Virus record (IMG/VR): IMGVR_UViG_3300006802_000655
Location: 1 to 22,267 of that record
Reading direction: 5' to 3' (one strand)
Source of the DNA: a virus
Length of the DNA stretch: 22,267 bases
The notes under the pieces are model-generated. The model was not told where the DNA came from. It searched no databases and was given only the letters and a program-made list of their open reading frames with translations. Below are positions 1,407 to 19,600 of this stretch, piece by piece. Both the position numbers and the translations under genes were made by a program. Within the stretch, counting starts at the first letter, position 1; every line of letters starts with the position of its first letter.

Positions 1407-1416
1407 TGATCTAACC

Positions 1417-1907: not shown

Positions 1908-1957
1908 CGTCCTACCGCCTACTTGTGCTACCGTACCACCCTGCTCCCATTCCCTTT

Positions 1958-2839
1958 ATGCCTGATTCACTGCGCGACTACTTTAACGAAGTAGGTAGGT
2001 ATCCTCTACTTACTGTTACGCAAGAGATACAGCTGGCGCGTCAGATAGAAGCAGGCGCCGCCCTAAGCGGTAAAACGGAACTGACTGCGTACGAAAAGCG
2101 CGTGCTTAGGCTGGCAGAGCGAGCCAAGCGTAAGTTGATTAACTGCAATTTGCGGTTGGTCGTGAATGTAGCTAAGCAGTACACGCGCCGGCTTACAGGT
2201 AGCGGTATGGAGCTTATGGATCTTATACAGGAAGGCGGATTAGGTTTGGTGCGTGCCGTTGAGCTGTTTGACAGCAGTAGAGGTTACAAGTTTTCAACCT
2301 ACGCCTATTGGTGGATAAAGCAAGCGATCAGCCGCGCTATCGACAGTAAAGAGCGCCTGGTGCGTGTACCTATCTACCAATTAAATAAAGTCTATAAGGC
2401 TGTGCGTTACCAAAGAACGCACATGCAGCAAGAAGGAAAAATGCCTACATTAGCGCAAATGGCAGCAGAAGTAGAGACAGATGCGGAAGATATGCAGCTG
2501 CTACTTAAGTGCAATATGAACCACTTTAGCTTAGATGCTTTGGTTATGGACAACGGCAGTTCTGCGCTTGAGCGTATGCCTGACGAAGCGGCCTTAGAGG
2601 CGCATCAGGATGGAATCGAAAGTAACGAGAAGGCTGTGTTATACAAGGCCGCGATCGAGTGCCTTACTCCTACAGAACTGCAGCTTGTGCAGCGTAGGTA
2701 CGGACTGACAGGCGCAGAGCCTATGTCTATGTATGCCATAGCAGCAGAGGAAGGAGTAAGTAGAGAGCGTGTAAGGCAGCGGCTTAAACACGCTCACATG
2801 AAGATGCGCGAGCGCCTGCACGCTATGAGGTTGGTATGA
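1958..2839 (+). CDS. phage-encoded sigma-70 family RNA polymerase sigma factor (group-2-like)
   Basis: This would redirect host RNA polymerase to particular promoters. Residue numbers follow the ATG 1958 start. Region 1.2 is at about 2-35 (DSLRDYFNEVGRYPLLT). Region 2 spans about 62-131: NCNLRLVVNVAKQY, DLIQEGGLGLVRAVE, then the -10-recognition and melting segment YKFSTYAYWWIKQAISRAI. Region 3 follows with RVPIYQLNKV. Region 4 lies at about 235-290, with LTPTELQLVQRRYGL and the -35 helix-turn-helix EEGVSRERVRQRLK. Length (293 aa) suits a group-2 or group-3 sigma without region 1.1. A GTG at 1925 would add 11 residues; neither start has a Shine-Dalgarno site. The stop overlaps the next start (ATGA, 2836-2839). 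The family call is firm; which promoters it serves is unknown. Confidence 0.93.
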   Translation: MPDSLRDYFNEVGRYPLLTVTQEIQLARQIEAGAALSGKTELTAYEKRVLRLAERAKRKLINCNLRLVVNVAKQYTRRLTGSGMELMDLIQEGGLGLVRAVELFDSSRGYKFSTYAYWWIKQAISRAIDSKERLVRVPIYQLNKVYKAVRYQRTHMQQEGKMPTLAQMAAEVETDAEDMQLLLKCNMNHFSLDALVMDNGSSALERMPDEAALEAHQDGIESNEKAVLYKAAIECLTPTELQLVQRRYGLTGAEPMSMYAIAAEEGVSRERVRQRLKHAHMKMRERLHAMRLV

Positions 2840-3423
2840 TGCACATCATAGGACTGTATTCGACTGTGCCGCAAAGCGGGAAGACGACTGTAAGTCGTGC
2901 GTTAACGAATCGTGGATATGAGCGTGTTTCTTTTGCGGCGACGTTAAAGGGAATGCTGATAGCTATGCTTACCGACATGGGTTACACAAAAGCGCAGGCG
3001 GCAAAACTTGCGTACGTGGACAAGGAAACGGTGTTGCCAGCCTTGGGGGTGACTCCTCGCTACTTGTTGCAAACCTTAGGAACAGAGTGGGGCAGAACGT
3101 GCATATCGTCAGACTTGTGGTTGCGCGTTTGGCAAATTAAAATACAGCACAAAGTCACCGTAGAGCGCCGCGATAGATTTGTTGTCGACGATGTGCGTTT
3201 TGCTAATGAGGCTGAGCTGGTGCGTTCGCTGGGCGGAGAAGTGTGGAAGGTGGTGCGTACCAGCGCCGGAGCGTGTGATGGAGCGACGCATGTCTCAGAG
3301 GGGGGCTTAGAGTCTTGGCCGCATTTCACACGCTATATTGAGAACGATGGATCCTTAGAGGAGCTACTTCGTGCCGTCGCTAAGATACCACTCGGGAAAG
3401 ATGGTACTGATTCCTCAGAATGA
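2836..3423 (+). CDS. deoxynucleoside monophosphate kinase (phage dNMP kinase)
   Basis: This enzyme family phosphorylates dNMPs to dNDPs with ATP, supplying precursors for phage DNA synthesis. The P-loop is at the N terminus (GLYSTVPQSGKTTVSRAL, Lys16/Thr17 from ATG 2836). The family signature LLQTLGTEWGR followed by SDLWLRVW lies near residues 77-97. A Walker-B-like VVDDVRFANEAELVRSLGG lies near 115-133. This is the arrangement of T4 gp1-type kinases and their shorter phage relatives. At 195 aa it is compact. ATG 2836 overlaps the sigma factor stop; an alternative ATG lies one codon later. Function in the nucleotide pool fits the dCTP deaminase gene 900 bases downstream. Confidence 0.85.
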   Translation: MMHIIGLYSTVPQSGKTTVSRALTNRGYERVSFAATLKGMLIAMLTDMGYTKAQAAKLAYVDKETVLPALGVTPRYLLQTLGTEWGRTCISSDLWLRVWQIKIQHKVTVERRDRFVVDDVRFANEAELVRSLGGEVWKVVRTSAGACDGATHVSEGGLESWPHFTRYIENDGSLEELLRAVAKIPLGKDGTDSSE

Positions 3424-3700
3424 GGGGTGGCTACTGCGATTAAAGACAAAGCAAGGTACGCTTGAGTTTCCTTTGCAGGAAATGAAGCTAGAAGCGGCTC
3501 TAGTTGAAGCCGAGCAGCTGTACGAAGATGTTATGGTAGCGACTAATGGGAAGCCTAGATGTCAGCAGTGTGTGCATTGGCATTTTATGCAAGGCGCTTG
3601 TGACTTAGGTTTCCCAGAGGGAAAGCGCAGTGGAGGTACGCACGCTCAAGATTGTGTGATATTTTGGCCTAACAAGCAGCTGCGACGTAAGACTGATTAG
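3401..3700 (+). CDS. small four-cysteine protein (putative zinc-binding), 99 aa
   Basis: I prefer ATG 3401, preceded by GGGAAAG, over the upstream GTG 3371. It overlaps the end of the kinase gene by 23 bases. Residues 1-48 form an unrecognised mixed region (GWLLRLKTKQGTLEFPLQ). Residues 51-88 carry C54-x2-C57-x9-C67-x17-C85 with His59/His61 between (CQQCVHWH, then CDLGFPEG, then AQDCVIF). The CDLGFPEG...DC element recalls small Cys-rich proteins of cyanobacteria and their phages, and suggests one zinc site. Function is unknown; a nucleic-acid-binding or regulatory role is only a guess. The stop overlaps the convergent HNH gene by 4 bases. Confidence 0.7.
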   Translation: MVLIPQNEGWLLRLKTKQGTLEFPLQEMKLEAALVEAEQLYEDVMVATNGKPRCQQCVHWHFMQGACDLGFPEGKRSGGTHAQDCVIFWPNKQLRRKTD

Positions 3701-3996
3701 GAGTTTAGCCAGGTTTGTATGTGTGCCTCCCTTGCGGCAGACCATGTAGCTTGCTCAGAAAACCAGGATCGCCAATCGTTACTGCCCTTACTGCGGTTAC
3801 ATTCGCGGCACGCTGGAACGAGATTATTTACTACGGTGTTGCCGCCTTTGTGTCTAGGTTTTACGTGGTCTAGGGTGTCTGCCGGTTTGCCGCAATAGGC
3901 GCAAGTGTGTGCCCAAGCGTCGAATATGCGCTGTCTGAACTGTTGCTTTGCGGAGCGCTTAGGGACAAGCGATGTGCCGTCAATTTGATGCTTCAC
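3697..3996 (-). CDS. HNH endonuclease, 99 aa
   Basis: A single compact HNH (beta-beta-alpha-metal) nuclease domain. The zinc-type cysteines are C32-x2-C35 (CAYCG) and C63-x2-C66 (ACRECNRSKG). The catalytic core is LDHVKPRHKGG with Asp43-His44, followed by NTVVNNLVPACRECN. The N terminus is basic (VPKRSAKQQFRQR), as expected for DNA contact. The gene runs opposite to its neighbours, ends 4 bases inside the convergent gene, and overlaps its own upstream partner by 17 bases. Free-standing HNH proteins of this size are either homing-type mobile nucleases or packaging-associated nicking enzymes. No terminase is nearby, so the role stays open. Confidence 0.88.
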   Translation of the reverse strand: MKHQIDGTSLVPKRSAKQQFRQRIFDAWAHTCAYCGKPADTLDHVKPRHKGGNTVVNNLVPACRECNRSKGSNDWRSWFSEQATWSAAREAHIQTWLNS

Positions 3997-4162
3997 GCAA
4001 CTCAGGGATGGGAAGGACGGTAACAGACATTGACAATATGTGCGAATCGGTGGGTGCTAGTTCTCCTAGCCGTGCTACAAAATTACTGCTTACCGTCTCT
4101 GCGTCTGTCTCCTCGCTGTCTACGACGACCGTGTATTCAATTTCTAGGATGTACTGTCTCAT
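3980..4162 (-). CDS. hypothetical protein, 60 aa
   Basis: ATG 4162 (MRQYILEIEYTVVVDSEET) is favoured. The longer reading from a GTG near 4279 adds 39 residues that look non-coding and has no ribosome-binding site. The product has a beta-like start, a helical acidic middle and a second strand-like segment (HILSMSVTVLPIPEL), so a small ferredoxin-like or ACT-like fold is conceivable. No family was recognised. It overlaps the HNH gene by 17 bases and is probably co-transcribed with it from the divergent intergenic region. Confidence 0.5.
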   Translation of the reverse strand: MRQYILEIEYTVVVDSEETDAETVSSNFVARLGELAPTDSHILSMSVTVLPIPELREASN

Positions 4163-4332
4163 AGCGCTTAGAGTCGGTTGAGTACAGCACTCCGATGGTG
4201 CGTATGTAGAGTGTAAACCATCGCTGCCTAGGCGGAGAGGCTGGTAGAGTTGGCCATGGGACACCGAGAACCGCCCCACTGGGATCGGCTAATGCCGAAC
4301 GTGCCAAGTCAGCCCTACTTCGCTACGACTAC
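4163..4332. other. divergent intergenic region (170 bases)
   Basis: This is the only sizeable non-coding stretch. It separates the leftward HNH pair from the rightward dCTP deaminase gene, so it should hold promoters for both. I could not find a convincing TTGACA/TATAAT pair on either strand. It contains one 7-base inverted repeat (4193-4223). No tRNA cloverleaf could be built from it. Confidence 0.5.
4193..4223. repeat. inverted repeat CGATGGT / ACCATCG, possible operator or hairpin
   Basis: CGATGGT (4193-4199) and its exact reverse complement ACCATCG (4217-4223) are separated by 17 bases. The position between divergent genes fits a repressor half-site pair about two helical turns apart centre to centre, or an RNA hairpin. 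A 7-base match can occur by chance. Confidence 0.3.
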
Positions 4333-4842
4333 ATGAACATTCCTGACCACGAGATTCGTACTCTCTGTGAGCATGGCTTAGTGACGCCTTACGAACCATC
4401 GTTGATCAATCCGGCTAGCCTGGATGTACGCCTTGGGGCTTCGATGCTTATTGAATCGGCTGAGAGTCCTGAGATGGTGCCGTATCCGTTCGGCGATCAC
4501 AGCGAAAATGCTCCTTATCTGCTGGCACCCGGCGAGTTCGTACTACTGCCAACGCTGGAATTTGTGCAGATCCCCGAGCATCTGGATGCACAATTCGTGC
4601 TGAAATCTAGCCGCGCACGCGAAGGCATTCAGCACATGCTGGCTGGGTACTTGGATCCGGGGTTTTGCGGCGTAATTACCTTGGAGCTGCAGAATAGTCG
4701 CCAGCTACATTCGATTCCGATTTGGCCTGATATGAAGATCGGCCAGCTGAAGCTCAGTCCGCTGCGATCTCGGCCCGAGCGCAGTTATGCGCAGACAGGC
4801 CGATACCATCAGGCGCAAACGGTGGAGGCGAGTAAAGGCTAG
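4333..4842 (+). CDS. dcd: dCTP deaminase / dUTPase-superfamily enzyme
   Basis: Enzymes of this family deaminate dCTP to dUTP, and some also hydrolyse dUTP, feeding dTMP synthesis. The product is 169 aa, somewhat shorter than the roughly 190 aa of bacterial Dcd. Motifs run in family order: INPASLDVRLG (25-35), the PGEFVLLPTLEFVQIPEHL beta segment (66-84), KSSRAREGIQ (91-100) and LDPGFCGVITLELQN (107-121). Glu118 corresponds to the catalytic Glu. The C-terminal cap is QLKLSPL...RSYAQTGRYHQ. The SSRAR form and the DPGF motif favour Dcd over a plain dUTPase. The frame ends 20 bases before the convergent endolysin stop. Together with the dNMP kinase it points to phage control of nucleotide pools. 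Confidence 0.9.
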   Translation: MNIPDHEIRTLCEHGLVTPYEPSLINPASLDVRLGASMLIESAESPEMVPYPFGDHSENAPYLLAPGEFVLLPTLEFVQIPEHLDAQFVLKSSRAREGIQHMLAGYLDPGFCGVITLELQNSRQLHSIPIWPDMKIGQLKLSPLRSRPERSYAQTGRYHQAQTVEASKG

Positions 4843-4862
4843 GGCGCCGCGAGCCGCCGCCT

Positions 4863-6035
4863 TCAGCTGCGAATGTCCAGGAACCAGCCGGAGCCGCGGC
4901 CGTCAGCCTCCCATCGCCTTAGCCAGTTCTGCCGGCTGTAGCGCACGCCGCGGCCGGCGGTGCCGTTGGTGGCGATGTAGCCGCCGTTGACGAGATCCGC
5001 CTCGCCGTTCGGGTCGTTGTGGATGAACGACAGAGCATCGCAGCCGATCACCACGGACCAGTGGCCACCGCCAGTCGGGCGATCGACCGGACCTTTGTGG
5101 AGCCAACCGACGGGCACCGGCCGGCCCTCCCTCAGGATCCGCTCCAGCGTCTCAGCGCTGCCGTTCTGCCTGAACTGCGCCTGTAGGCCGAGGCTACCGA
5201 GCGCCCGCAGCTGTGCGCTGCTGCTGGTGCTGTCGCCAAACCGTCCGCGGATGGCGTTGTAGGCGTCGTCGTTGCGAACTTTGCCGTAGAATCGCGCAAC
5301 CATTGCGCAGCTGCTGGAGAAACATTCGCGGTAGCCGGTGCCCGAAGCGTTGTCGTTTTGGAACTCATACGGCACCTTGAGCAATATCGAATTAGCTGCT
5401 GGTGTGCCGATGAACAGTGCCACTTCTGCAGCGCGTCGCCGCACCAGGCCCGCCATGACACCGGCGCCGCCTTTGTTCCATCGCGGCAGCTCTTCCTGCA
5501 CCACCGTCGCCGGATCCTGGCCACTGAGCAGTCGCTTGCGCAGGGTTGAGCCCTGCAATGCGCTGATGCCGACGTTGTAGGTGAACGATACGATCGCTGC
5601 CTGGCGATGGGCGTTCCAGCCTGCCGCCATCGGCAGCAGCTCGACCATGGCGCGGTGGAACCGGCGCAGATCGGCCAGCAGTGCGGAGTCGGCCTGCTGC
5701 TGGCTCCAGACGGTGCCGGGGCCGATGGATGCGCCGGTCGAGCCCCATCCGATGGTCCACGGCTCGCCACCGGTGCCAGGGTCTGGGTACGCCTCCAACC
5801 GGCAGCCCTCGAACTCCTTCACCAGCCGCAGGCACGGGGTTAGCCAGTCGATGCCGGGCGATGGCGACGACTCCGGCTTGGCTGCAGGCGCAGCACGGAA
5901 CAGTTCCGCGAACTCTTTCAGCGCGGCCGGGTCATTGGCGCTGAGCCGTAGCTGCAGCTGCCGCCATGCGGCGATCTGATGGCTGAGGTTCTTGTGTGCT
6001 TGGACGGCATTGAGCAGTTCGATTGGATCCGCCAT
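4863..6035 (-). CDS. modular endolysin: GH24 lysozyme + C39-like peptidase, 390 aa
   Basis: This should degrade peptidoglycan at the end of infection. Residues 1-60 are a helical leader and a Ser/Pro linker without signal peptide. Residues 62-210 are a GH24 (T4/P22-type) lysozyme: catalytic Glu76 in KEFEGCRLEAYPD, Asp85, Thr94 in EPWTIGWGST, then NAHRQAAIVSFTYNVG and LPRWNKGGAGVMAGLVRRR. Residues 220-390 resemble a papain-like C39_2 peptidase: VPYEFQNDN, Cys238 at the position of the family's catalytic Cys (ECFSSSCAMVARFYG), His325 in GGHWSVVIGCD, and Asp341 in HNDPNG. The pair implies glycan and peptide cleavage, or substrate binding by the second domain. The gene is clearly more GC-rich than the tail genes (38 of 60 bases in one hand-counted slice, 4981-5040). 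It ends the late operon. Confidence 0.88.
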   Translation of the reverse strand: MADPIELLNAVQAHKNLSHQIAAWRQLQLRLSANDPAALKEFAELFRAAPAAKPESSPSPGIDWLTPCLRLVKEFEGCRLEAYPDPGTGGEPWTIGWGSTGASIGPGTVWSQQQADSALLADLRRFHRAMVELLPMAAGWNAHRQAAIVSFTYNVGISALQGSTLRKRLLSGQDPATVVQEELPRWNKGGAGVMAGLVRRRAAEVALFIGTPAANSILLKVPYEFQNDNASGTGYRECFSSSCAMVARFYGKVRNDDAYNAIRGRFGDSTSSSAQLRALGSLGLQAQFRQNGSAETLERILREGRPVPVGWLHKGPVDRPTGGGHWSVVIGCDALSFIHNDPNGEADLVNGGYIATNGTAGRGVRYSRQNWLRRWEADGRGSGWFLDIRS

Positions 6036-6038
6036 GAC

Positions 6039-6227: not shown

Positions 6228-6253
6228 GGTAGGGGTTGCGGCGTGCTTTGATC

Positions 6254-6822: not shown

Positions 6823-9039
6823 TTACAGCTCAGCGGATGCGTTAGCGTTTTGGACTTGGCATTCTATATCTTGGTTACCGTCGATTGCGCCGGCAAACAC
6901 AACGCCATGAGTGTAGCCGAGCGCTGTTGGTGTTGTTACATCTGAAATGCCTAGGGCTGTTATCGTTGGAGCGACGCGCATAGGCGTGCCGAACGGCACA
7001 AATAACCGCCGTTGGTTTGTTGCAAATGTCACGGGAGGGTACAACGTGGCGCCATTAGCGAAACCGTGGCGATAGTACCGCTGGCACATCGCTAGTTCTT
7101 GCTGAATGCCTCTTTGTTGGAATGCCGTAGCGGTATTGCCGCTCTCTAGTTGCACATTGGCTATTGTCCAAGTTCCTGACGTTTGCGCTCCGACGGTGAA
7201 TACGAGTTCTAAGCCGCTACTGTATGGAATACTACTTATTACTGCAGTATAGCGAGTAAGTGTACTGGTTACTGTGAATGTTCCTGTTTGTAGCGACAGT
7301 CTAGTCGGGCTGCTGCGCGTACCGAAGGCGTCGTTAGAGTTAGCCGCGTATAATGTCCATGTTACAGTTGAAAGGTATGTATTCGCTAGGTCCACACTCA
7401 GCGCCGCTGCCCCGCCCTGCATTTGATACATATTAAGCCTTTCGATGCGCTGTCCGAACCCTACTGCTGATACAGACCCTCCGATTGGGATTACACGGTA
7501 TGCGTATCTGTCTGATGTAGGCAGCAAGTAGCGTTCCGCTGTTACGTTGGCACCTGAGCAAAAGGCGTACCAGCGATCCAGGGTGTAGGCGTACTCGGCA
7601 CCGGCGATGATTGTATGCACAGCGCCGTTGTTGCGTTGGTCTATCGCCATATTGCCGTTGATTATAGCGTTAAATGTGCCAGAGGGTGCGTTGCCGCCTA
7701 AGTTGCCCCAAGCACTGCCGTTGTAGCCCTCGAACTGTGCAAGCGTACTGTTGTAGCGCACTTGACCGATAGCTGCGGTGGGCCGTTGCCCCGTAGTGCC
7801 TGCCGGGATCTGTAGGGCGCCGGTTGATGTACTGGTTGGGTTACCTGAATAGGCGAATGCAGTTGTAGAAAAGGAGCCTAGGGAGTCCCTTGCAATAGGG
7901 GTGCTAGGCGTGTTAGCGCTTGTAGCTGTACTCGTTACAGTAGGGTTGCCTGCTACGCCGTCTGCGTTGCTTACGGTTAGCCCTACACCAGATACAGCTA
8001 AAGAGCGTGCTACGACTGTGCCGGAAGCTGTGCGGGTAAATAAGCCGTTAGTGCTTAGTAAGCCGAGAGCGGCGACTTGTGCGTTGCTTTGCAGCTGCCA
8101 TGCGATGGCGGTTGTGCCTAAGGTGCCTCCGCGTGCTATTCGACATACCCATGTGGTGTCGTCGTTTACAGCACCTTGTTCGATGGCCACGGTAGCGGCC
8201 ACAAGATCGTTCCAGGTGTCCGCGTCTGATGCTCGCGTCAGTACCCAAGCAGTTGCGCCAGAACCGACTGTGGTAACGGTGTAGATGCCGTTCTGCGCGG
8301 CGCTTGCCTGATCCTTTACAAGTACGCGATCGTCCAGCGATAAGGAGAGTGTGTCGATACTTAGGGCGGCTAGCGTATCGGCGTTTGTGAGCGTTGTTGT
8401 TGTTGCTGTTACTGTGAGTGCGGTAGTGGTGGCTACTCGACAGCTTTGTTTGGGGGTGCGAGATTCTGCCCATCGACGAGTTACGGGATGTAATTCTGCG
8501 GTAGGATCGCCATATAGGGTTACGTCGCCTGTTAATGTGCCGCCGCTTAGCGGCAATGCGTCGAGGATAATCTGTGCCCGGACGTAGGCTGTGGTTGCCA
8601 GTTGCGTGGTGTTGGTGCCTGGAGCCGCGGTGGGTGCTGTCGGGGTGCCGGTCAGTGTGGGACTAGCCAAGCCAGCGTAGGACTGGTTGCGGACCCAAGC
8701 AGTCGTGGCTATCGCCACACTGTTGTCACCTGTGGCAGGTGTCGTTGCGGTGGCTGTGGCTAGGGCAGTTGCTCCCGTCACACTCAAGGTGCCGCCAATA
8801 CTGGCGTTACCAGTGGTACTAAGGCCGGTCAGCGCATAGGTCGTGGTCAGCTCGCTCCAGGTGCTGCCGCTCCACTTCTGCCAACGGTTGATTGAGCTGC
8901 TCCAGCGGATCGCTCCGGTAGGAAGGTTCGAGGCGGTCACGCCGTCGAACTGCAGCGCTAGGTCCGTGTCCCTATTCTTCAGCTCATTCAAGAAGTCTGT
9001 GTAGGTGCTCGTTAAGAGCGGATTTGACCAGTTTGCCAT
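6823..9039 (-). CDS. tail fibre / receptor-binding protein, 738 aa
   Basis: Modular, Thr/Ser/Ala-rich fibre. Residues 1-75: baseplate-proximal part with AIRWSSSINRWQKWSGSTW. Residues 75-155: collagen-like fibre repeats (SPTLTGTPTAPTAAPGTNTT then QLATTAYVRAQ). Residues 195-315: a widespread phage-fibre module with DDRVLVKDQASAAQNGIYTV and WVLTRASDADTW. Residues 320-450: shaft with GQVRYNSTLAQFEGYNGSAW. Residues 455-660: a probable beta-sandwich carbohydrate-binding tip (NAIINGNMAIDQRNNG ... LDRWYAF ... VQLESGNTATAFQQRGIQQE, CQRYYRHG). The final 75 residues may be a trimerisation knob. The start overlaps the J stop (TAATG at 9037-9041, minus strand). The distal half is lower in GC than the N-terminal part, as expected of exchanged receptor-binding modules. 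Receptor unknown. Confidence 0.85.
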   Translation of the reverse strand: MANWSNPLLTSTYTDFLNELKNRDTDLALQFDGVTASNLPTGAIRWSSSINRWQKWSGSTWSELTTTYALTGLSTTGNASIGGTLSVTGATALATATATTPATGDNSVAIATTAWVRNQSYAGLASPTLTGTPTAPTAAPGTNTTQLATTAYVRAQIILDALPLSGGTLTGDVTLYGDPTAELHPVTRRWAESRTPKQSCRVATTTALTVTATTTTLTNADTLAALSIDTLSLSLDDRVLVKDQASAAQNGIYTVTTVGSGATAWVLTRASDADTWNDLVAATVAIEQGAVNDDTTWVCRIARGGTLGTTAIAWQLQSNAQVAALGLLSTNGLFTRTASGTVVARSLAVSGVGLTVSNADGVAGNPTVTSTATSANTPSTPIARDSLGSFSTTAFAYSGNPTSTSTGALQIPAGTTGQRPTAAIGQVRYNSTLAQFEGYNGSAWGNLGGNAPSGTFNAIINGNMAIDQRNNGAVHTIIAGAEYAYTLDRWYAFCSGANVTAERYLLPTSDRYAYRVIPIGGSVSAVGFGQRIERLNMYQMQGGAAALSVDLANTYLSTVTWTLYAANSNDAFGTRSSPTRLSLQTGTFTVTSTLTRYTAVISSIPYSSGLELVFTVGAQTSGTWTIANVQLESGNTATAFQQRGIQQELAMCQRYYRHGFANGATLYPPVTFATNQRRLFVPFGTPMRVAPTITALGISDVTTPTALGYTHGVVFAGAIDGNQDIECQVQNANASAEL

Positions 9040-12000
9040 TAGACTCCTCTAGCGTTCCAGCTAAAACTACCGCTAACCCGCGTTCCCGAAGTGTCGAAGA
9101 GAAGCACCTTGAAGGTCGTGGGGTTTGGGCTATCAACAAAATCATAGACCGCAACAACTCCACTGGTCGCCAGCGGTGTGACTGTGATACTTTGCACATC
9201 CATAAATGCCACATTGAATGTTACGGTAGTTCCTCCGGTATCCCCGCTATTGGCGGTGTCTGTACCGGCATCGTTGCGTATTTTTGCGTCTATGCGTGTG
9301 TTGAGTGCGAGCAGCTGCAGGATGTCATTATTACCACTGGAGGAGAAGTCATAGCGTACTCTGATGTAGCGAAATTGTGTAGCGAATACTTCTGACACCC
9401 CCGAGTAGGTGGTCCATTTTACCCAACTGACATTGCCGCTTGTTGTAGCACTCGTCGAAGACGTTACGGTGAATGTGTTTGTCGCTGCTGTTACAACGAC
9501 ATAAGTGCCGTCTGCGGCAGTGCCACTTGTGAAGTCTAAGTAAACGTAGTCGTCCGCTGCCAGTCCGTGCGCGTTGGATGTAACAGTAATTGTTGTGGTG
9601 GTTTGAGAGTAGGTAGCGGCGGTTGTGGTAGTACCTCTTACTCGTATTGCGGGCGTTATTGTTGTAGACCCGACTACGGCGGTGCTAGTTAGAGCGGCAC
9701 TCACTTTTGTCCCGGCTAACACTGTGCCGTAGTCGATTTCCTCTTCATAAAACGCTGTCGTAGTTGACGGCATAAGGTAGTAAGAGTAGCCGGCGGTTAT
9801 TTGATCTTGCGGGGTCGTGTAGCTGCGGCTTGTGAAATGGGATTCCCAAGTCTCTCCAGTGTCTACGTTGACTAGAGGCAGCCCTGAGGCGTCGATATAG
9901 ATATTGGACGCTGTGCCGTTCCACGTGCTGTTTTGGTTGACCTGCAGCACGTAGTCCGGCGGCTGGCTTACGATCGCTGTAACTGAACCAGGGGCACCGT
10001 AATTTCCCGCCGAATCGATACCAGCCAGCCAATAGGTGTAGGTTCCTGCGGATGTCTCGAATACCGTAGTAAAGCCTCCCAGCTTAGTGCCTATAACTGT
10101 CGCCGACGCCCAAGAGCTGCCACGCCTTAGTTCGTAGCTAGCGATCGGTAGGGTTTGAGTGCAATCGTTCCAGCGGAGTAAGACATTGTTGTCTACAACC
10201 TGCTGCGACAGCGCTGGAACGGATGGAGGCACTACCGATACGTCCAGGTCGGAGGCCGCCCCTTCGTTTCCATTTACGTCTACAGCAGCGATCCAGAACT
10301 TTTGCGAGCCGGACCAATCGACGCGCAGCGTGTAAGCGGTAGCTTTTATGGAGGCGACTACGGCAGCGGAGCCCCATAATGTTCCGCGCTTGAGTAGATA
10401 GAGGCTTGTGTCGAGAGTACCCTTTACGGCTGGCCAGGAGAATACGACATGCTGCCCGGCGAAGGTGGACGAAAGTGCGGTTGCTGCTGCTACGTCGATG
10501 GTTAGTATGGTTGATGCTTCAGTGCCGTAGTTGTTATTCGTGTCTTTTGCTACGACCCAGAATGTCTGGGCACCGCTCCAGTCTGCCGTGGTACGGTAAC
10601 TTGTAGCTGTGACATTAGCTAGCGTTGTGGCTGACGAGAACGTAGATCCACGCCGAATCTCATAGCTCGATGTCGGTAAAGAGCCTTGTACGGCGGTCCA
10701 AGACAGCGTGGCTGTCGTGCCTTCGATCAGAGCTGTTATTGCTACAGCAGGCGGCGCACTAACAGTGACGGTGAGGCTGCTTGGAGGATCCGCGAATCTG
10801 CCAACAAGATCGACAGGCACGACGTAGAAGGTACGCGATCCCGCCCACGTTATAGGTAGCGTAAAGCTAGTTCCTTGCGCTTTTGTGATTTCGGTGCTAG
10901 TTGCGTAACTATTACCGTAGGCGATCAGGTAATATGAAATAGCGTACGTCGTAATGGCGGGCTGCGTCCATGTTAGGATGAGGCTAGTTCCGTCAACTAC
11001 GCTGCTTATTGTGGTGGTGTTAGGGTCAGCGATCGTGATGGCTACAGTTGCAGGGTTGGCGCTGTAGATGCCAGAAGTATCTAGCGCTTTTACTAGGTAA
11101 GTGTATGTACCGTTATCGAAGTAGCCTAGCTTGTACGTGGTTGCTTTTATTTGTGTAATTAAAGTGGCGGTGCCCCAAGATTCGCCTCGGCGGATTTCGT
11201 ACTGAGCTAGATCAATATCGGGTATAGCGTCCCAGGTCAGAAGTACACCAAGATCCTTATCAGCGGTGAAGTTCAGGTTTACAACATCGCTTGGAGGCGC
11301 GATTTTACCGACGACGGAGACACTGCCGGTCAAGGCGTCCGCCGAGAATTTCAGCGCCGGGCTAATTGAATAAACCTGGAAGTCAAATACACCAGGCGTA
11401 GTATCCAATACTTGAAAATCGGGACCGTCAACTGTTACCACTGTCCAGTTATTCTGATCCTTACGCCAACGCACTTGATACTGACTTATGCCCAGTACAG
11501 GTTTCCAGCTTGCCAACACTTTAACCCGTATCTGTCCTTGGTATTCGTATAAGGCTTCACTTAGCGCTAGGTTTGTGGGCGGCGTAGGTTGCTCGTTTAG
11601 GTTAGTTACGTCACGCCCCTGGAGCGCTACGCCGCGTTCGATGTAGGCGTACTTGTCTGCGTCGTAGGCAATAGCTGTCACTCCGTATTGCGCACCTTCC
11701 TGTTCTGTGACGGTAAGTACGCGCCAGGTCGTTGTTCTTATGTCGGCACTTTCGTATATCCAGACGCTATTTACGTTGGGAGCTGTTGTGAAACTTGAGC
11801 TTACCGTTATTACGTTACCTGCGATACTTGCTATGCTGCGTGTTTGTACGGTCCCGTCGGGCATTACGACCGATAATGTGCGCTGTGTGCCGCTGCCTAT
11901 TCCTGCGGTACTATCCACTGTGATGGCAGTGGCCGTGGCTGCTGTGATGCGCCCGCCGCGGCGTTGTCCGGCTTTCACGGGGTCGGCAATGGCGATGACT

Positions 12001-14000
12001 TGACCAGGACGCACCACGACTCCGGCGTCGATGGAGGCGGTGAACGCCACTACTTCATTTTCGTAGTTTTCGGCGTATAGCAGCCATTCTCCTAAGCGAC
12101 GGGCCTGCCCTCGGGATGTGCAAGCAAACGCTGCGATCTCTGTCGTCACAGCGCCGTACTTAGCGATTGCTTCTTGGTCTTCTACGACTTCGTATGCTGT
12201 ATTACGTGAAGGGATGTCTAGGTAGCTAACTACAACTACAGTGGGCCGTGTTTTACGGCTACTGTTTTGGTAACTAAAGCCGTCTTCGGACACATTGGCG
12301 AGTGTGAATAGGTAAGCGGGATCTGCAGGCTTATCTTGGTTGAGTGTGACGGCGCCTGTGCTCCAGTACGCCATGGCTCGGAATACAGAACACAGATCGT
12401 TAATTAGCTTGTAAGCGTCTTCTTGTGTTTGTATGTTTACGTTGCACGCAAAACGTTGCTCAGTCCCGCCGAAGCCGTCTGGAACTAATTCGTTGCAGTA
12501 GATAGATGCGGCGTAGAATGCCCACTTGTCTAAGCGCGAAGCATTGCCTGTAAATGATTGCTTTTCTTGGTCTGTTAGTATGTGCTCTCCAAAGCCGTAA
12601 CGGGTAGATGTAAGTAGATCCCATAAGATCCAGGCGGGATCTCTTGTCCATTGCGCTGCGCCGAACGTACCGTTCCACACGCCTGCGTACTGTAAGCGGC
12701 CTGTGTTCCCGTAAGCGGCGTTGTAGACCGGACTCGCGTTTGTTGGTATCTTCACTTTGATCCCGCGAAGCAAATAACTACGGCTTGGTATCGAATTAAA
12801 CTGCGCAGCGTCTACGCGCAGTTGAATGTATGCACTGTTAGTGTAACGCAACTTAGCGTAGGTTATTTCAGTGTAGGATGTCCATGTGAACGCATCCGTT
12901 AGCTTAGCGCTTGTACTGTCGTCTGTTATGCGCGTAACTTTAATGTCAATAGGGAAAGCGTTTGGGACAGCCGCCGTATTTATATCTACAATATAGTCTC
13001 GCTGGTATTGGTCACCACTTCGGCCTGTGATCGTGTCGTCTATCCGTGTAACATAACCACCGCCGTTAGCTTGTACGGCAATCTGTAGTCTGACGCTGGT
13101 TCCTACAATATCACCTTTATCGGTAAAGCGTTGTAAGGAAGGAATTGTGATGGTGACGCGCACAGCATTAACTACGCCGTTTGTCACAGTTCGCACGACT
13201 GGAGTCAGCTTTGTAACCTCTACTCCTACAGGTACTTCGTTTTCGATGTTATTAAGTGCGGATTTATCTAACGCCGGTACGCTCAGTGGGTTACCTCTAC
13301 TGAAATCAGCAATCGTGACATTGTTAAAGTTGTAGCTAGCGTCTTTGTTTTGTAATGGTGTGTTGTTCAGATATACGGACCCGAAGGACAGGTAATCTTC
13401 TGCGGATGGGTCTTCTACGCTTTTTAGACCTTCTATTTCGCCCTCGCTGAGTAAATCGAGTACGGTGGCATATTGTGCGGAATCGAGGCTATCAGCGGCT
13501 TCGCTGGGGGTGTATCCGCCTCCGCCGCCTTTACCGCCGCCGCCTGCGCCTGCGATCGGACCACGGCCAAGGCCGGCGTTGTGGACGCGGATGCCGCCAG
13601 CGATGAACGTGTGGTGACCCTGTACGGTGAGGTTGTAGACCGTACCACGCTCTAAGGGTGTGCGATCGACTATCGGGCGCAGGTGCCCGTTTTCGTCAAC
13701 TACGCAATCGTCAGGCCCAAGTGTACCAATTTCGACGAATGCGTTGTACTGGTTTAGTACCCAATGGTTTGGGGTAGCATCTAGGGTAACCCCGCCCCAT
13801 ACCTGATACCGGGTTACAGGCTGGTCGGTGTGAACGTGTAGTTTTAGTACCTTAGCCGTATGCAATTCGCCGCGATCGTCGAAACTCAGCACCTCGTCGC
13901 CGGGCTGCAGCGACTCGATGGTGCGCATTCCGTCTGGGGTGCGTACCAAAGTGTGGCCTAAGAAGCAGCCGAGGCCGCCAGCACCAGCGATGTGGATCAT
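9039..14000 (-). CDS. J: tail tip attachment / host-specificity protein J with N-terminal Hint domain, 1653 aa
   Basis: Central tail-tip protein that contacts the receptor and carries fibres. Residues 1-11 (MIHIAGAGGLG) begin the usual Gly-rich J leader. Residues 12-141 are an intein-like Hint domain. The leader then resumes (GLGRGPIAGAGGGGKGGGGG). Residues 165-800 are the conserved J core, starting with DSAQYATVLDLLSEGEIEGL and including WILWDLLTSTRYGFG and the DAYKLINDLCSVFRAMAYW region. About six fibronectin-III-like repeats follow (805-1347). The C terminus (1348-1653) has Thr-rich beta modules, including NAHGLAADDYVYLDFTSGTA. The ATG overlaps the I stop (ATGA, 13997-14000) and the stop overlaps the fibre start. 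The core, position and H-M-L-K-I-J order make the assignment firm. Lambda J is about 1130 aa; the excess is the Hint and the extra FN3/C-terminal modules. Confidence 0.93.
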   Translation of the reverse strand: MIHIAGAGGLGCFLGHTLVRTPDGMRTIESLQPGDEVLSFDDRGELHTAKVLKLHVHTDQPVTRYQVWGGVTLDATPNHWVLNQYNAFVEIGTLGPDDCVVDENGHLRPIVDRTPLERGTVYNLTVQGHHTFIAGGIRVHNAGLGRGPIAGAGGGGKGGGGGYTPSEAADSLDSAQYATVLDLLSEGEIEGLKSVEDPSAEDYLSFGSVYLNNTPLQNKDASYNFNNVTIADFSRGNPLSVPALDKSALNNIENEVPVGVEVTKLTPVVRTVTNGVVNAVRVTITIPSLQRFTDKGDIVGTSVRLQIAVQANGGGYVTRIDDTITGRSGDQYQRDYIVDINTAAVPNAFPIDIKVTRITDDSTSAKLTDAFTWTSYTEITYAKLRYTNSAYIQLRVDAAQFNSIPSRSYLLRGIKVKIPTNASPVYNAAYGNTGRLQYAGVWNGTFGAAQWTRDPAWILWDLLTSTRYGFGEHILTDQEKQSFTGNASRLDKWAFYAASIYCNELVPDGFGGTEQRFACNVNIQTQEDAYKLINDLCSVFRAMAYWSTGAVTLNQDKPADPAYLFTLANVSEDGFSYQNSSRKTRPTVVVVSYLDIPSRNTAYEVVEDQEAIAKYGAVTTEIAAFACTSRGQARRLGEWLLYAENYENEVVAFTASIDAGVVVRPGQVIAIADPVKAGQRRGGRITAATATAITVDSTAGIGSGTQRTLSVVMPDGTVQTRSIASIAGNVITVSSSFTTAPNVNSVWIYESADIRTTTWRVLTVTEQEGAQYGVTAIAYDADKYAYIERGVALQGRDVTNLNEQPTPPTNLALSEALYEYQGQIRVKVLASWKPVLGISQYQVRWRKDQNNWTVVTVDGPDFQVLDTTPGVFDFQVYSISPALKFSADALTGSVSVVGKIAPPSDVVNLNFTADKDLGVLLTWDAIPDIDLAQYEIRRGESWGTATLITQIKATTYKLGYFDNGTYTYLVKALDTSGIYSANPATVAITIADPNTTTISSVVDGTSLILTWTQPAITTYAISYYLIAYGNSYATSTEITKAQGTSFTLPITWAGSRTFYVVPVDLVGRFADPPSSLTVTVSAPPAVAITALIEGTTATLSWTAVQGSLPTSSYEIRRGSTFSSATTLANVTATSYRTTADWSGAQTFWVVAKDTNNNYGTEASTILTIDVAAATALSSTFAGQHVVFSWPAVKGTLDTSLYLLKRGTLWGSAAVVASIKATAYTLRVDWSGSQKFWIAAVDVNGNEGAASDLDVSVVPPSVPALSQQVVDNNVLLRWNDCTQTLPIASYELRRGSSWASATVIGTKLGGFTTVFETSAGTYTYWLAGIDSAGNYGAPGSVTAIVSQPPDYVLQVNQNSTWNGTASNIYIDASGLPLVNVDTGETWESHFTSRSYTTPQDQITAGYSYYLMPSTTTAFYEEEIDYGTVLAGTKVSAALTSTAVVGSTTITPAIRVRGTTTTAATYSQTTTTITVTSNAHGLAADDYVYLDFTSGTAADGTYVVVTAATNTFTVTSSTSATTSGNVSWVKWTTYSGVSEVFATQFRYIRVRYDFSSSGNNDILQLLALNTRIDAKIRNDAGTDTANSGDTGGTTVTFNVAFMDVQSITVTPLATSGVVAVYDFVDSPNPTTFKVLLFDTSGTRVSGSFSWNARGV
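9960..11588 (-). other. array of about six fibronectin-III-like repeats in J
   Basis: Units of roughly 85-95 residues recur over J residues 805-1347. Each carries a related strand: YQVRWRKDQNNW, YEIRRGESWGTAT, YLIAYGNSYATST, YEIRRGSTFSSAT, YLLKRGTLWGSAA and YELRRGSSWASAT. A later aromatic strand also recurs (FWVVAKD, FWIAAVD, YWLAGID). Such Ig-like arrays extend tip proteins and are thought to bind cell-surface carbohydrate. Unit borders are estimated by eye. Confidence 0.75.
13578..13967 (-). other. Hint (intein / BIL-type) domain inserted in J leader
   Basis: J residues 12-141, 130 aa, have all Hint landmarks. Cys12 begins block A (CFLGHTLVRTPDGMRTIESL, then QPGDEVLS). Block B is VTLDATPNHWVL, with the TxxH pattern at Thr76-His79. 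Block F is TVYNLTVQGHHTFIAGGIRV followed by His140-Asn141. There is no room for a homing endonuclease domain. The residue after Asn141 is Ala, not Cys, Ser or Thr, so this fits bacterial intein-like (BIL) domains better than a classical intein. The flanks read AGAGGLG before and AGLGRGPIAGAGG after, so removal would restore a plain Gly-rich J leader. Confidence 0.88.
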
Positions 14001-14575
14001 CCGAGCACCTGCACAGTGTCGATGCCGGCCGAGATTACGACAGAGCCGACAAGCATTTCACCATACACTATAGGTACAGGAGTTCCTTCGCGGCTAGTGT
14101 TTTGGATCCCACTGAAGCTGTAGGATCTACGGGGATCGTTGGGACTATCGACGCCGCTAGGTATGACTGGTACGGGTGTTAGCAGCTGGGCTACACCGCC
14201 TAAGGTGAGGCTAGTACCTAAGCCAAACACCAAACCTTTTAAGGCAGTGCCGAACACTAAAGCGCCAGGAGAAATAAAAACAGAGGCGACAATCAGGGCT
14301 ACGCCTGCGAGGATTCGAGCGACACCACCGGCGCCTGTCAATGTGGGGATGATTTTGATCTCTTGCAAGCCTGAGGGATGCTGCAGTTCTTCCTTATCCA
14401 AGGCGTAATCTCCGACGCACACACGGTAATGACCTTTGGCTAGTTCTGGCTCTAGGTGTGGGAAGTTGGTGAGCAGGAATCGCACGGCTTCGGCAGCGCT
14501 AGAAACGTCAGCACTGAATACACGACGCTTCAGAAACTTAGCCAGACGACCATAAATGCGAATTGTTCGTAGCAT
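13997..14575 (-). CDS. I: tail assembly protein I (lambda gpI-like), 192 aa
   Basis: Needed for tail tip assembly in lambda-type phages. Residues 1-83 are a beta-grasp (ubiquitin/MoaD-like) domain: [48 protein letters not shown], and QEIKIIPTLTGAGG closing on a Gly-Gly motif at 81-84. Then come two hydrophobic stretches (VARILAGVALIVASVFI and ALKGLVFGLGTSLTLGGVAQ). The C-terminal tail has NTSREGTPVPIVYGEMLVGS, characteristic of gpI. I choose ATG 14575, whose A is shared with the previous TAA (TAATG); the longer frame starting at 14641 overlaps K by 67 bases. The stop overlaps the J start. It sits between K and J as in lambda. Confidence 0.88.
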   Translation of the reverse strand: MLRTIRIYGRLAKFLKRRVFSADVSSAAEAVRFLLTNFPHLEPELAKGHYRVCVGDYALDKEELQHPSGLQEIKIIPTLTGAGGVARILAGVALIVASVFISPGALVFGTALKGLVFGLGTSLTLGGVAQLLTPVPVIPSGVDSPNDPRRSYSFSGIQNTSREGTPVPIVYGEMLVGSVVISAGIDTVQVLG

Positions 14576-15297
14576 TACCGGCGCACCAACTTCTCTGAAT
14601 CGTAGTGGCGTAACCTGCGTCCGGTGCATTTCTGTAGCCAACTACCGTACAGGTCACGGCTACTTAGTCTGCCGCGAATGTGGTGCAACACTAGCTGATC
14701 GTCGATGTAAACTGCGACATGATTCAATCCGCGACCGCGTATATTCATAAGAAGAGCGTCGCCATATTGTAAGTTCTCGTCTTCGTTTAGTTCGCGAAAG
14801 CCGGCTTCGTGCCAGTAGGCGTCGAACATCGGGCGGGTCTCGAACTCTTCAGGAGTGACAGGACGCGGCCAGTCGGGCAGTACCAGCTCGTGTTGGGCAT
14901 ACCAGTCGCGGGCCAAGGTCCAGCAGTCGGCGATTGCCCATACCCACGTGCGGCCGATCAGCGGTGCTTGATACCCGGAAGGTCGCAGCTCAGTGCTCCA
15001 GGCTTCTGTCTTGGGGTTGACGATCCACCACGGAATGCCGGCCGCTTCGATCGCCATCAGATCGGCTTGGCTCGGCGATGGAGGCGTGACGGGGTGGCTA
15101 TGAACGACTGCCAGTACCTCGCCCGCATCCTCCGCCGCGGCGTAGTCGATCGGGTCGAGGATGAAATGGGTAGTGTCAGCGGCCAGGTTGCGGCAGGGCC
15201 AATACCGCTCGCGCCCCTTCACAACAACAACTAATCCGCACGACTCACGCGGATCTTCTTGCTTAGCGTGTTGTAGAGCTGCTGTGCGCCAGATCAT
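14575..15297 (-). CDS. K: tail tip protein K: JAMM isopeptidase-like + NlpC/P60 domains, 240 aa
   Basis: In lambda-type phages gpK joins tail tip assembly. Residues 1-105 are a JAB/MPN+ domain with the complete zinc motif: Glu18 in RESCGL, then H66-x-H68-x7-S76-x2-D79 ([14 protein letters not shown]). Residues 115-240 are an NlpC/P60 cysteine peptidase: Cys125 in [11 protein letters not shown], His193 in [10 protein letters not shown], and a third polar residue near LVLHHIRG. All catalytic residues appear intact, so both domains are probably active: one perhaps on the ubiquitin-like part of I, the other on peptidoglycan during DNA entry. ATG 15297 overlaps the L stop (ATGA, 15294-15297); the longer frame to 15345 would overlap L by 52 bases. 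Confidence 0.9.
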
Positions 15298-16286
15298 GCG
15301 AAGTAGGTTCCAATGCCAGGGAAGGCACCGAACGGGATGCCCCAAATGGAATCATACCCGAACCTAGCGACACAACTGCTCAACCGCTTGCCGCACACGT
15401 CTTGCGCTGGATCGACTGTACCTTGGTCATTTTCGTCGAAGTACACAAGCACGCCTAGGTCAGGATAGGTGGTTAGATAATAGGCGGAGTCGAATATGCC
15501 TCCGGCGTTGCCGTCGCGATTTTCTAAAAGGCCGTATGTGCGATAGTGTTCGTTGGCGGTGAGTAGGGTGTAACCTGCAGCGGCTACGTCTGCGTATGCG
15601 GCTAGATACCAGGCGGCATCAAACTGCCCGGAAGCGTTTATGACTCTACCTTCACTGTATCCATGTGTTCTATAATGTACGTGCAGCTGCGTGTATCTTA
15701 AAGGGTCGCCGACGGGATCCCAGCCGCAGTCGGAGCCCTTATAGGTCCAGGGGCACAGGTTTCTTAGGCATTGTCGCCTGGGGGCGCGTACGCCTACCAA
15801 GTCGAAAGCGCTTGCTAGCTCAAACTCAACTACGTCTCGCGTCTCGTTTGATTTGCGGTCTATGTAGTATATCTCTTGGGGAAATTCTGCTGTCGGGTCT
15901 GGGGTGCCGTAAGGATTGACTGCGCCGGGAAAGTTGACGGCATCGAGGTAGCGAGCCAGCGTGCGGATGCGGGTTACCTTTGCGCCCTCTAAACCGTTGG
16001 GGAGTGTTACCAGGATTGCGGTAATCGTGCCTAAGATATTGCTGCAGCGAATGCGCGGGCGAGGGAGCGTACCTTTGCCGTTGTACTCGAAACCGTCAGC
16101 TTCGATGGGGAATCTGATGTAGGTGTTGCCGGCCCACACAAGATCGCTGTTGCTGTTCAGGCTTGTGCCAGCGTGAAAGCGGTAGGTTTCGGTAACGCCG
16201 TGCTGTACTGCGTTTAAGTCTAGCTGGAAGAACTCCAGTATAGCGGAAGGAGCTACCGCTTGCAGCTCTGAGATTGGAATAGCCAT
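15294..16286 (-). CDS. L: minor tail protein L with an inserted repeat region, 330 aa
   Basis: Tail tip protein of the lambda gpL family; lambda gpL binds an iron-sulfur cluster through C-terminal cysteines. The N-terminal 165 residues are canonical ([10 protein letters not shown]-like segment, [54 protein letters not shown]). The Cys region is [15 protein letters not shown] (C173, C178, C187), and the C terminus [15 protein letters not shown] (C298, C305) ends [10 protein letters not shown]. Between C187 and C298, where gpL normally has a short linker, lie about 90 extra residues of repeats (separate entry). It starts 2 bases after the M stop and its own stop overlaps the K start. Family assignment is firm; the insert is unusual. 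Confidence 0.88.
15441..15710 (-). other. FDxxYYLxxYPD / HYRxxG repeat insertion within L
   Basis: L residues 193-282 hold one complete unit, [17 protein letters not shown]...[11 protein letters not shown]. It is flanked by the second half of a unit before it ([11 protein letters not shown]) and the first half of a unit after it ([14 protein letters not shown]). The consensus matches the FDxxYYLxxNPDVxxAGxxxxxHYxxxGxxEGR repeats known from large bacterial surface and secreted proteins and some glycosyltransferases. It sits between the second and third Cys groups of the presumed iron-sulfur site. Confidence 0.75.
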
Positions 16287-16288
16287 GA

Positions 16289-16624
16289 TTAAGGCTCGAA
16301 CACTTGGCGAAAGGTGGCGCGTATAGTGTTAAAGTTACAGGCGCGTAGCGTCACTTGCCAAGTTTCGCACACGAATTTGCCTGCGGAGCCTGCGGGGGGT
16401 GTCCAGTCGAAAGACTCGGAGCCTCCGCGTGCGTCGAGAAACGCTTCGATTGCGTCGCGCTCTGCATCAGTGCGTTCGCTGAACGTCAAGTCCCAGGATT
16501 TTGGGTTGGTGTTCAGTCCGAAGCGTATGCGCTGTTCGTAGCCGTCTCCGGCTTGGAATTTACGCACTTTGGGCTGACTCGTTTCGCTGGCCTCGAAACT
16601 GGGTATCCAGGTAAATTGTGGCAT
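16289..16624 (-). CDS. M: minor tail protein M, 111 aa
   Basis: Tail tip assembly protein of the lambda gpM family. Diagnostic features: the N-terminal FTWIPSFEASETSQPKVRKF segment, then FQAGDGYEQRIRFGLN, WDLTFSERTDAERDAIEAFL, and GGSESFDWTPPAG followed by the C-terminal strand RATFRQVFEP. The length matches lambda gpM (about 109 aa). It lies 11 bases after the tape measure stop and 2 bases before the L start. It probably acts with L at the interface between tail tube and tip. No unusual residues noted. Confidence 0.88.
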   Translation of the reverse strand: MPQFTWIPSFEASETSQPKVRKFQAGDGYEQRIRFGLNTNPKSWDLTFSERTDAERDAIEAFLDARGGSESFDWTPPAGSAGKFVCETWQVTLRACNFNTIRATFRQVFEP

Positions 16625-16635: not shown

Positions 16636-19600
16636 CTACTTAGCGAGGAGACCACCTGGACGTTTTTGTTTTATCAGCTCTTCTTGCACGGCTTGGGATA
16701 TGGCACGCCCCAGCTGTTCGCCTTTTGCGGCATTGCCTTGCACTTGGCTGCCTGTTGCGTCAACACTTACGTTGACTGTAATAGGCGTTCCAGTGGCGTT
16801 TGCTGACTCGACACCAAGCCTACCGTTAGGGAGACGGCGCAGCGGCATGATTGCCTCTGGGCCGGCCTCGCCTATCAAGCCGAGGCGCCCAGCGCCGCCG
16901 TTGGCGAAGGCAAACATCGTCGGCTTCTGCACCACACCGCCTGCGGCAAATGGGACGATTCCATTCGAGAAGACGCCGCCGTTGGCCGCTGCGAAGCCTG
17001 GAATCGGGGCGAACGTGGACAGACCTGCGGAGATGCGATCCAGTGCCGGCGTAGGTGAAGGTAGAACGGAGTTGAACATTTGCATGACACTGCGCAACAC
17101 AAGCTGCTGTGTGATCATGCGTGCGGTATCTCTTAGTATAGATGCGGCAAACTCGCGGAAGTTTACGGTGCCTGTAGTAAGCAAGCTCATTATCGCGTCT
17201 TCGACGCCTCTTATTCCGCTTTGGACAAGCTGCGCGGTGGCTTCGCGCATGGATCCGATGGACTGCAGGTAGGCTTGCGCACCGTCGCGCATACCGCCGC
17301 TTACGCTATTGTTGAATTTGTCCTGAGCCGACTGAGCGTCGATTAGTAGTTGTATGTTGCGTTCGTAGGCGGCGTTTACTTCTCGCATCGTCGCCGTTAG
17401 TTTTGTCTTGTCTGCCCTAGGGTCAGCTGAGAGGTCTTTGTATGTGCGTTCGGCGATGGTTTGTTCGCGGCGGATTTCATACAGTCTGGTTTCTAGTTGA
17501 ATGCGCTCGGGGGACACGCCCTCGTCACGAAGCCTGTTTTGCAGTTTTTGTAGATCGTTGTTTTTGCTAAGTTCTTGGTTTTGTTGAGCTAGCGCGTCTG
17601 AGGCTTTTAGTGTAAATTGCTCGTACTGTGCGGCTATTTCCCGTGGCACGAATGCTTCTATGTTTTGCTGCTCTTTCCGGGCTTTCTGCGCTTCTAGGCG
17701 CTCCGCTGTGGCGGAACCGGCGATTGTGATGGCGCGGTTTTGCTGTGTCACAGCCCCGGCAGCGGTAGGCCGCATCGCACCTATTCCTAAGATGCGCTGC
17801 ACGCGAGCGGTTAGCTGACGCTCGGCGCCGACGGGGACTTGAACGGCCGGTACGTCAAAAGCGAGACCGCTGTAATGCGCCGAACCTTCTGTGTGGCGAC
17901 CCACGCGCCCGTACCCTTGGAACTCTGTTACCTTTATACCTGCGGAGATTAACTTCTTATATGCGGCTTCGGCGGCTTGACGACTTGCAAACGCTATGTG
18001 TTCGTGGTAGTTGGTGCCGCCGTGGTCGGCTCTGTAATAAGGACTGCGCGGATCGCCTGTGATGTAACTGGTGATTCCTGCAGGGAGTCCTTTAGTGGGT
18101 TGATTCAGTCTTAGCGTAGCTGCGCCTTGTTCGGCAAAGGCGGCGCGTGCAGCGGCTGTGCGTTGCGCCTGTTCCGCAAGCGCGACCTTTCGCCGCGCCT
18201 CGGCACGGCGCTCTTCGACTTCACGTAGGCTGCGCTGCAAGTCCTCGAAGTTGCTAAGTATATCGCGGGCGGTGCCTGTTTCGCGCATAAGACGATTCTG
18301 GGTTTGGAGATCGTCTAAGCGCTTCTGCAGTTCGTAACGCTGACGATCCAGCTCGATCTGATGCTGGAACACCATGTCGGCGGCACGAAGCTGTTGGTCG
18401 AGTAGGTTGTTAGCTAGGCGTTGTTGCTCGGCGGCGGCTTTGTCTGCGTCGCGTTTGGCGGAGTCGGCTTTGCTGGAACCGCCGGAAGTTGTCGCCGCAG
18501 GTGGAGGCGTTGGGAATCTGAATAGATCCTCTACGTTAAACGCTTGAGGTTTTGTACTGGGCGGTTTGGGCGGCTTGGGCGCAGTGGCAGCGTTACGCGC
18601 TTCAATGGCTTTTACAGTAGCTTCACCAATATCCACAATACCTGTAATTTTTAACGCGGTGAAAAATGGATTAGAGTAGTTTACCATATTGCGCACCGTT
18701 TCTTTCCAGCGCTCTGCAATAAGGCCAAATGCCCAAGACCATGTATCAGCTACAGCACGGGCAGCCGGTTCCATGAAGCTAACCAGTCCTTGTATGTCTA
18801 TACCGATAGCGTTGAATGCGGCGGCGCTTATTTTCGCTAACCCGTCGAAGAACCAAGTTATACGTCCCCACAACGCGCTAAGGTCGTTGGCTATGCTGCC
18901 CCAGAAAGCGGCAGTTGCTTTTGCGTACAAGGATATTTCGGATATAAAGAAGCTCTGTACAGATGCTATAAACTGGGTTACGGCGGTAGTGGCAGTGCCT
19001 ACGGCACGCGCTACCACTACAAAACCTTCAGCAGTAGCTACAAGACTAGGTGTAATGTCCGTAATAAACACGGCAAAAGCGCTTTGGAACTCTGCGCCGA
19101 GCGGTTGTAGGGCGCGGCCCACCTCATACTGCATGTTCTGCACCGCCACGGTCATGCGTGCGCCGGCTTCCTGACTGGACTTGGCAATCTTCAGGGCTGT
19201 TTGGCCGTACTGTGTGCTGACAAGCTGCAAGAATTTGGTTAGGTCGTTTAAGCCTACCTTGCCTTGTTCTAGCGCTTTTGTTAGTTCAGGACCAGTTTTG
19301 CCGGCGGCCTTAGCGAATAGTGTAAACGTGCCAGGTAAACGTTCCGCAATTTGATTTAGTTCTTCGGCGCTTACTTTGCCTTTGGAGAATACTTGAGTGA
19401 GTGCGAGGAGTGCGCCGTCTGCTTGTTCTGCGCCGCCGCCGGTAGCTTTGATCGCTTCGTTGATGGCACGGAAAGCAAAAGCGCTGTAGTTTACGTCGCC
19501 GCCAGCGCCCTTAACTGCGGCACTGAGCCTGGTTAGGCCGCGAAGTGCCGTCTCCTGCGGAACGTTGAGGTCGCGGGTAACGGCTGCAGATGCGGATAAT

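Follow-up and report, generated by a model that had tools for sequence, protein, structure and literature searches.

A group-2-like sigma factor of a cyanosiphovirus clade and its possible role at late promoters

The window analysed here, a virus contig of 22,267 bases, encodes a primary-like sigma factor of a cyanosiphovirus clade, which we propose, at roughly even odds (about 0.5), to be made early in infection and to steer the host RNA polymerase to late promoters that consist of a -10 element only. The sequences contain the gene with its sigma domains in a gene order shared with relatives; the protein belongs, once the longest branches are removed, to a clade of phage sigmas only, carries an insertion, and keeps core-binding, -10 and -35 residues, and the late arms of relatives are biased toward TANNNT. 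Comparisons with these relatives suggest that the phage sigma switches on the late, particle-building genes. The sigma would be made together with the replication genes, in early or middle infection, and would take the place of the host sigmas on the host RNA polymerase core. The sigma-loaded core would then go to -10-dependent promoters without a -35 element, situated just upstream of terS and of further leftward late-arm genes, and these sites would be read by the phage sigma rather than by a host sigma.

The open reading frame (ATG at 1958, stop at 2837-2839) is exactly the one first noted in the sequence-only reading, and with its domains it is far beyond chance; the coordinates of all features are collected in Table 1. 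Pfam region 2 (E = 6e-20, 71.3 bits) and region 4 (E = 1e-9, 38 bits) exceed their curated cut-offs, which places the protein in the sigma-70 family. Region 1.2 is recognized with E = 3e-12, and region 3 is detected below its threshold (20.5 versus 25.3 bits). Region 1.1 is absent, because just two residues stand before region 1.2. This is the domain composition of a group 2 sigma factor as defined in PMC2758279, with region 3 sub-threshold, and it agrees with the regions 1.2, 2, 3 and 4 without 1.1 that had been read from the letters. The protein is assigned to the phage sigma factors in PHROGs (phrog_351, E = 1e-71), and sigmas of the primary or RpoS/SigB type make up the PDB matches shown. 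Its AlphaFold model contains every sigma2-sigma4 helix (mean pLDDT 82.8; pTM only 0.47, with low-confidence linkers) and matches SigA chains with E = 4e-15. The top NCBIfam model is the cyanobacterial TIGR02997 (RpoD/SigA subfamily), at 241 bits against a cut-off of 384.5. Five pairs of close homologues have dN/dS of about 0.01-0.08, a sign of strong purifying selection, and the gene is therefore in use. The record holds one match to the protein, namely itself. No clear ribosome site was found before either of the two candidate starts, ATG 1958 and GTG 1925.

Table 1. Positions of the sigma gene, its regions and the neighbouring features in the window
Feature	Position	Strand	Evidence or remark
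Possible N-terminal extension, in-frame GTG 1925 as alternative start	1925..1957	+	overlaps -10-like element
TACCGT, candidate -10 element 23 nt before sigma ATG	1929..1934	+	weak: single match, could be chance
Sigma-70 family factor, group-2-like, 293 aa	1958..2839	+	Pfam, PHROGs, PDB, AlphaFold matches
Region 1.2, residues 3-33	1964..2056	+	PF00140
Region 2, residues 60-133	2135..2356	+	PF04542, residue map
LTGS, phage-sigma-typical insertion of 4 residues (turn 2.1-2.2)	2192..2203	+	
Region 3.0, extended -10 positions (H455 = Y140, E458 = N143)	2375..2386	+	residue map
Region 3, residues 146-211, weak match	2393..2590	+	PF04539 below cut-off
Region 4, residues 232-285	2651..2812	+	PF04545, residue map
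Deoxynucleoside monophosphate (dNMP) kinase	2836..3423	+	PF21448, phrog_139; 4-nt overlap with sigma stop
Conserved small ORF after kinase, 61-75% identical in relatives	3371..3700	+	
HNH endonuclease, conserved neighbour in convergent region	3697..3996	-	PF01844
Conserved small ORF adjoining HNH gene	3980..4279	-	
dCTP deaminase	4333..4842	+	PF22769, TIGR02274
Endolysin, promoter-distal end of leftward late arm within the window	4863..6035	-	PF00959, phrog_10051
Tail tip protein J, late arm	9039..14000	-	PF24801, NF049904
Minor tail proteins I, K, L, M, late arm	13997..16624	-	M by position and homology
Tape measure protein, late arm	16636..22155	-	length, position, homology

Residue roles were mapped with the numbering of E. 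coli sigma-70. The core-binding residues D88, Q91 and E92 of region 2 are kept, as are W118, W119, Q122 and R126 for melting and -10 recognition, with S125 at the position of T440. In region 4 the -35 residues are represented by R269, E270, R273 and Q274 (R584, E585, R588 and Q589 in E. coli). The recognition residues for -10 and -35 elements are thus of the primary type, except for the serine at T440, and both extended -10 residues are lost (H455 to Y140 and E458 to N143). A phage-borne, group-2-like sigma, as first proposed, is consistent with these residues, with the domains, and with the phage genes on either side. In a sister phage sigma clade (L016, L013, L015, L018, L036 and L028) the -10 residues are kept and the -35 contact residues are mostly lost.

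Of 64 viral sigmas, 58 have an insertion of 2-4 residues (longer in one case) where the chain turns from region 2.1 to region 2.2; none of the cyanobacterial cellular sigmas examined has it, and its presence agrees with the sigma tree. The six viral sigmas that lack it constitute another phage sigma group (L049-L058). Five cellular-labelled sigmas possess it, four from other phyla and one on a contig that looks phage-derived. That contig (L064 of the genome_contigs set, labelled as a Sphingomonadales MAG) has the sigma, HNH and lysin genes of the phages, arranged as in phages, and is probably a cyanophage contaminant of the bacterial MAG. The insertion and the late-arm sites described below were not met in the literature searched, which does not in itself establish that they are novel.

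The window is colinear with siphovirus contigs of ~55 kb, G026 (55.9 kb), G031 and G006 (53.3 kb), whose sigmas are 65%, 65% and 59% identical to the window protein, respectively. The large terminase of G006 is located at the far end of the genome and is read leftward; the window therefore represents the middle of a genome that has one rightward arm, ending near the sigma gene, and one long leftward arm. The late arm that had been expected to enter from the right is indeed present, in the form of leftward tail and lysis genes. In 46 viral loci the sigma gene likewise closes the rightward replication arm and faces the leftward tail and lysis arm, with an opposite-strand lysin 0.25-2.7 kb beyond it. 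One sigma copy was counted in 20 of 21 genomes and two in the remaining one. The terminase family was dropped as a synteny anchor, since only four of 19 records matched. As anticipated, the sigma gene precedes nucleotide genes, the overlapping dNMP kinase and then the dCTP deaminase, and no host genes surround it; phage genes flank it in an order common to the relatives. The best sigma and lysin matches belong to Synechococcus phages, and the assignment to a cyanobacterial host is drawn from these relatives rather than from a spacer or prophage match.

Other features of the window were also observed. GC content is 65% over the leftmost positions (1-1000) and drops to 50% at 2001-3000, where the sigma and kinase genes lie. 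In the endolysin, a phage lysozyme domain is fused to a C39/C70-like cysteine peptidase domain. The gpJ frame starts with a HINT/intein-like domain of ~145 residues (13560-14000, minus strand; PF07591 E = 8e-8, Intein_splicing E = 4e-4) that ends in HN-A; it may be common to relatives, since the alignments with J of G006, G031 and G032 likewise start at residue 1. In the gpL frame (15294-16286, minus strand), an insert with YLAAYADV...HYRTYG-type repeats separates the conserved N-terminal ~190 residues from the C-terminus.

The signal that points to late promoters comes from the relatives. Among relatives of the G006 terminase with 37 distinct upstream variants, TANNNT is found exactly 6-7 nt before the terS ATG in 29 variants (shuffles: mean 1.6, maximum 7) and in 11 of 17 divergent clusters, with T, A and T fixed and the three middle bases free. 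Such a spacing is consistent with a -10 element whose transcript has no leader or almost none. The sigma gene is present in three of the 20 terS contigs that are long enough to test. Many related contigs share an end point ~156 nt before terS (GACCGCG followed by AGGGGTTTCG; compare L156, L164 and L172), and this point resembles a lambda-type cos end.

The comparison of the two arms covered 37 genomes or contigs of relatives, nearly all of which have a sigma gene. TANNNT at 6, 7, 20 or 21 nt precedes 54 of 275 late-arm intergenic starts versus 7 of 209 early-arm starts (Fisher p = 2e-8), with spacings picked post hoc from the profile, mechanical gene starts and homologues partly removed. The two arms are alike at positions 10-19 (p = 0.41), the early arm has no TANNNT excess (observed/expected 1.1), and in the same set no TTG was seen at -35 spacing before the late-arm sites. 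Contigs outside the discovery set repeat the pattern (25 sites at 151 late starts, 5 at 219 early starts), and host-genome loci give a flat profile. After family reduction the late intergenic 21-nt peak amounts to 8 of 141, and the peak recurs inside overlapping genes, for example where the conserved end of M precedes L; part of it is thus coding, which weakens the case for a clean promoter signal. Lambdoid control phages display a weaker excess (10/86, observed/expected 2.6) that does not differ significantly from that of the sigma phages (p = 0.11), so that a signal unique to sigma phages is not upheld. TANNNT is also readable by host sigmas. No late-arm sites at these spacings were found in S-CBS1 and S-CBS3, nor in the window itself.

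Sigma-70-type sites are not in excess in positions 1-6600 of the window (1 found versus 2.8 expected from shuffles). Extended -10 counts in ten genomes gave one nominal excess (G006, p = 0.02) and one borderline case, which is not a general trend, and the de novo motif search yielded GCTGC alone, probably a coding bias.

The conserved arm-end position, the mostly single sigma per genome, the kept binding residues and the TANNNT sites at terS and in the late arm support a late sigma. The kept -35 residues and the loss of both extended -10 residues in the window protein count against it, as do the lambdoid excess, S-CBS1 and S-CBS3 without the signal, and the window without a late site. Promoters with a -10 element only ("type 2") are known in cyanobacteria, and the group 2 sigma SigD reads one in vitro while SigA cannot (PMC2758279). 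With this precedent, a group-2-like phage sigma and -10-only late promoters make a coherent, if unproven, model of an early-to-late switch. More tentatively, it is possible that in many aquatic siphoviruses, whose hosts are most likely picocyanobacteria, the primary-like, insertion-marked sigma serves as a late-specific sigma at -10-only promoters that lie at set, short spacings from the start codons, the late mRNAs often being leaderless, and that the -35-reading helix of the sister clade has decayed accordingly.

The retained -35 residues (R269, E270, R273 and Q274) and -10 residues would also serve a sigma that reads ordinary host-type -35/-10 promoters and brings more polymerase to phage DNA, at early genes too and without any switch to late ones. 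The authors who described P-SS2 expected canonical sigma-70 sites for its group 2 sigma (PMC2784084). We consider such a general takeover rather unlikely, as it is opposed by the lack of excess of sigma-70-type sites in positions 1-6600, by the early arm without TANNNT excess, and by the sister clade, which is mostly without -35 residues.

It is also improbable that the sigma is directed at the host, turning on a group 2 (stress or carbon) regulon that keeps the cell productive during infection. In the account of Sawa 2019 given in PMC10452541, S-CBS3 RpsD4 or S-CBS2 RpoD expressed in S. elongatus PCC 7942 led to better growth and more acetyl-CoA; however, overexpression in a foreign host is no proof of a role in infection, the gene holds one genome position, and the phage clade is old and apart from any one host group 2 sigma.

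The trees bear on this last point. The window sigma groups with L002, L004, L005, L007, S-CBS1 and KBS-S-2A (support 100/96), inside a cyanosiphovirus clade of S-CBS1, KBS-S-2A and relatives (100/96 and 98-99/94). When the longest branches are omitted, a split with support 100/99 sets 16 phage sigmas apart from every cyanobacterial SigA and group 2 sigma sampled, and it holds (100/98) after addition of E. coli RpoD and RpoS and acidobacterial sigmas; the comparison with cyanobacterial and phage sigmas called for at the outset hence yields a phage-only clade once those branches are removed. The phage branches are long, and support for where the clade attaches is weak (88/59). AU tests reject union with SigA (p = 0.017) and with three other host groups but leave union with either of two picocyanobacterial group 2 lineages unrejected, for which reason an old origin near such sigmas is possible. 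As the window sigma lies outside all sampled cyanobacterial clades, it is no recent host copy, and trees, insertion and identity all reject a recent transfer; nesting in a single host clade with host flanks, named beforehand as the outcome that would overturn the phage reading, did not occur in trees, AU tests or flanks. A recent host gene or a misbinned bacterial chromosomal gene is therefore extremely improbable, even though sigma factors are typical host genes and the top NCBIfam model is cyanobacterial at a sub-threshold score, given the flanking phage genes and colinear phage relatives, the phage-only clade, the insertion missing from cyanobacterial cellular sigmas, and an identity of ~38-39% to the best sampled cellular sigmas versus 65% to a phage sigma.

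Sigmas of this kind are already known in cyanobacterial viruses, namely S-CBS1, S-CBS3, KBS-S-2A (PMC3751600), S-LBS1 (PMC6157547) and P-SS2, whose "group 2" sigma was described in 2009 (PMC2784084). The initial view that a principal-like sigma is less common in phages does not hold among cyanophages, of which 65 of 153 genomes have RpoD/RpoS-type genes (PMC10452541); about 13% of phages in general have any sigma (PMC9429907). RpsD4 of the Synechococcus siphovirus S-CBS3 and its counterpart in S-CBS1, annotated in their records as group 2 RNA polymerase sigma factors, and RpoD of KBS-S-2A are 42-44% identical to the window sigma over 91-97%. They share the insertion in the same turn and the position late in the rightward replication arm, facing a leftward endolysin arm. 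In contrast to these phages, the window has dNMP kinase and dCTP deaminase genes adjoining the sigma gene, and its region 3.0 residues differ; S-CBS1 and S-CBS3 depart from the proposed late-arm pattern. In the Prochlorococcus siphovirus P-SS2 (ORF 113) and in S-CBS2 (RpoD) the sigma gene also adjoins replication genes, dcd and ssb in the former and ssb in the latter, although these sigmas form long branches with weak similarity to the window protein. The cyanobacterial SigB-SigE type likewise has regions 1.2-4 without 1.1 and the -10 and -35 residues; the window sigma differs in lying outside those clades and in its insertion. The T4 gp55-type late sigma resembles it in the proposed late-transcription role with the host core, whereas the window sigma has full regions 1.2 and 4 and a primary-sigma sequence.

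No mapping of gene timing in cyanosiphoviruses was found in the literature searched. With the conserved sigma position, the diagnostic insertion and the candidate late promoters, foremost that of terS, gene timing can be addressed directly in named phages such as KBS-S-2A, which has both the sigma gene and late-arm sites. If true, the proposed role would add to the T4 type a second way in which cyanophages transcribe their late genes.
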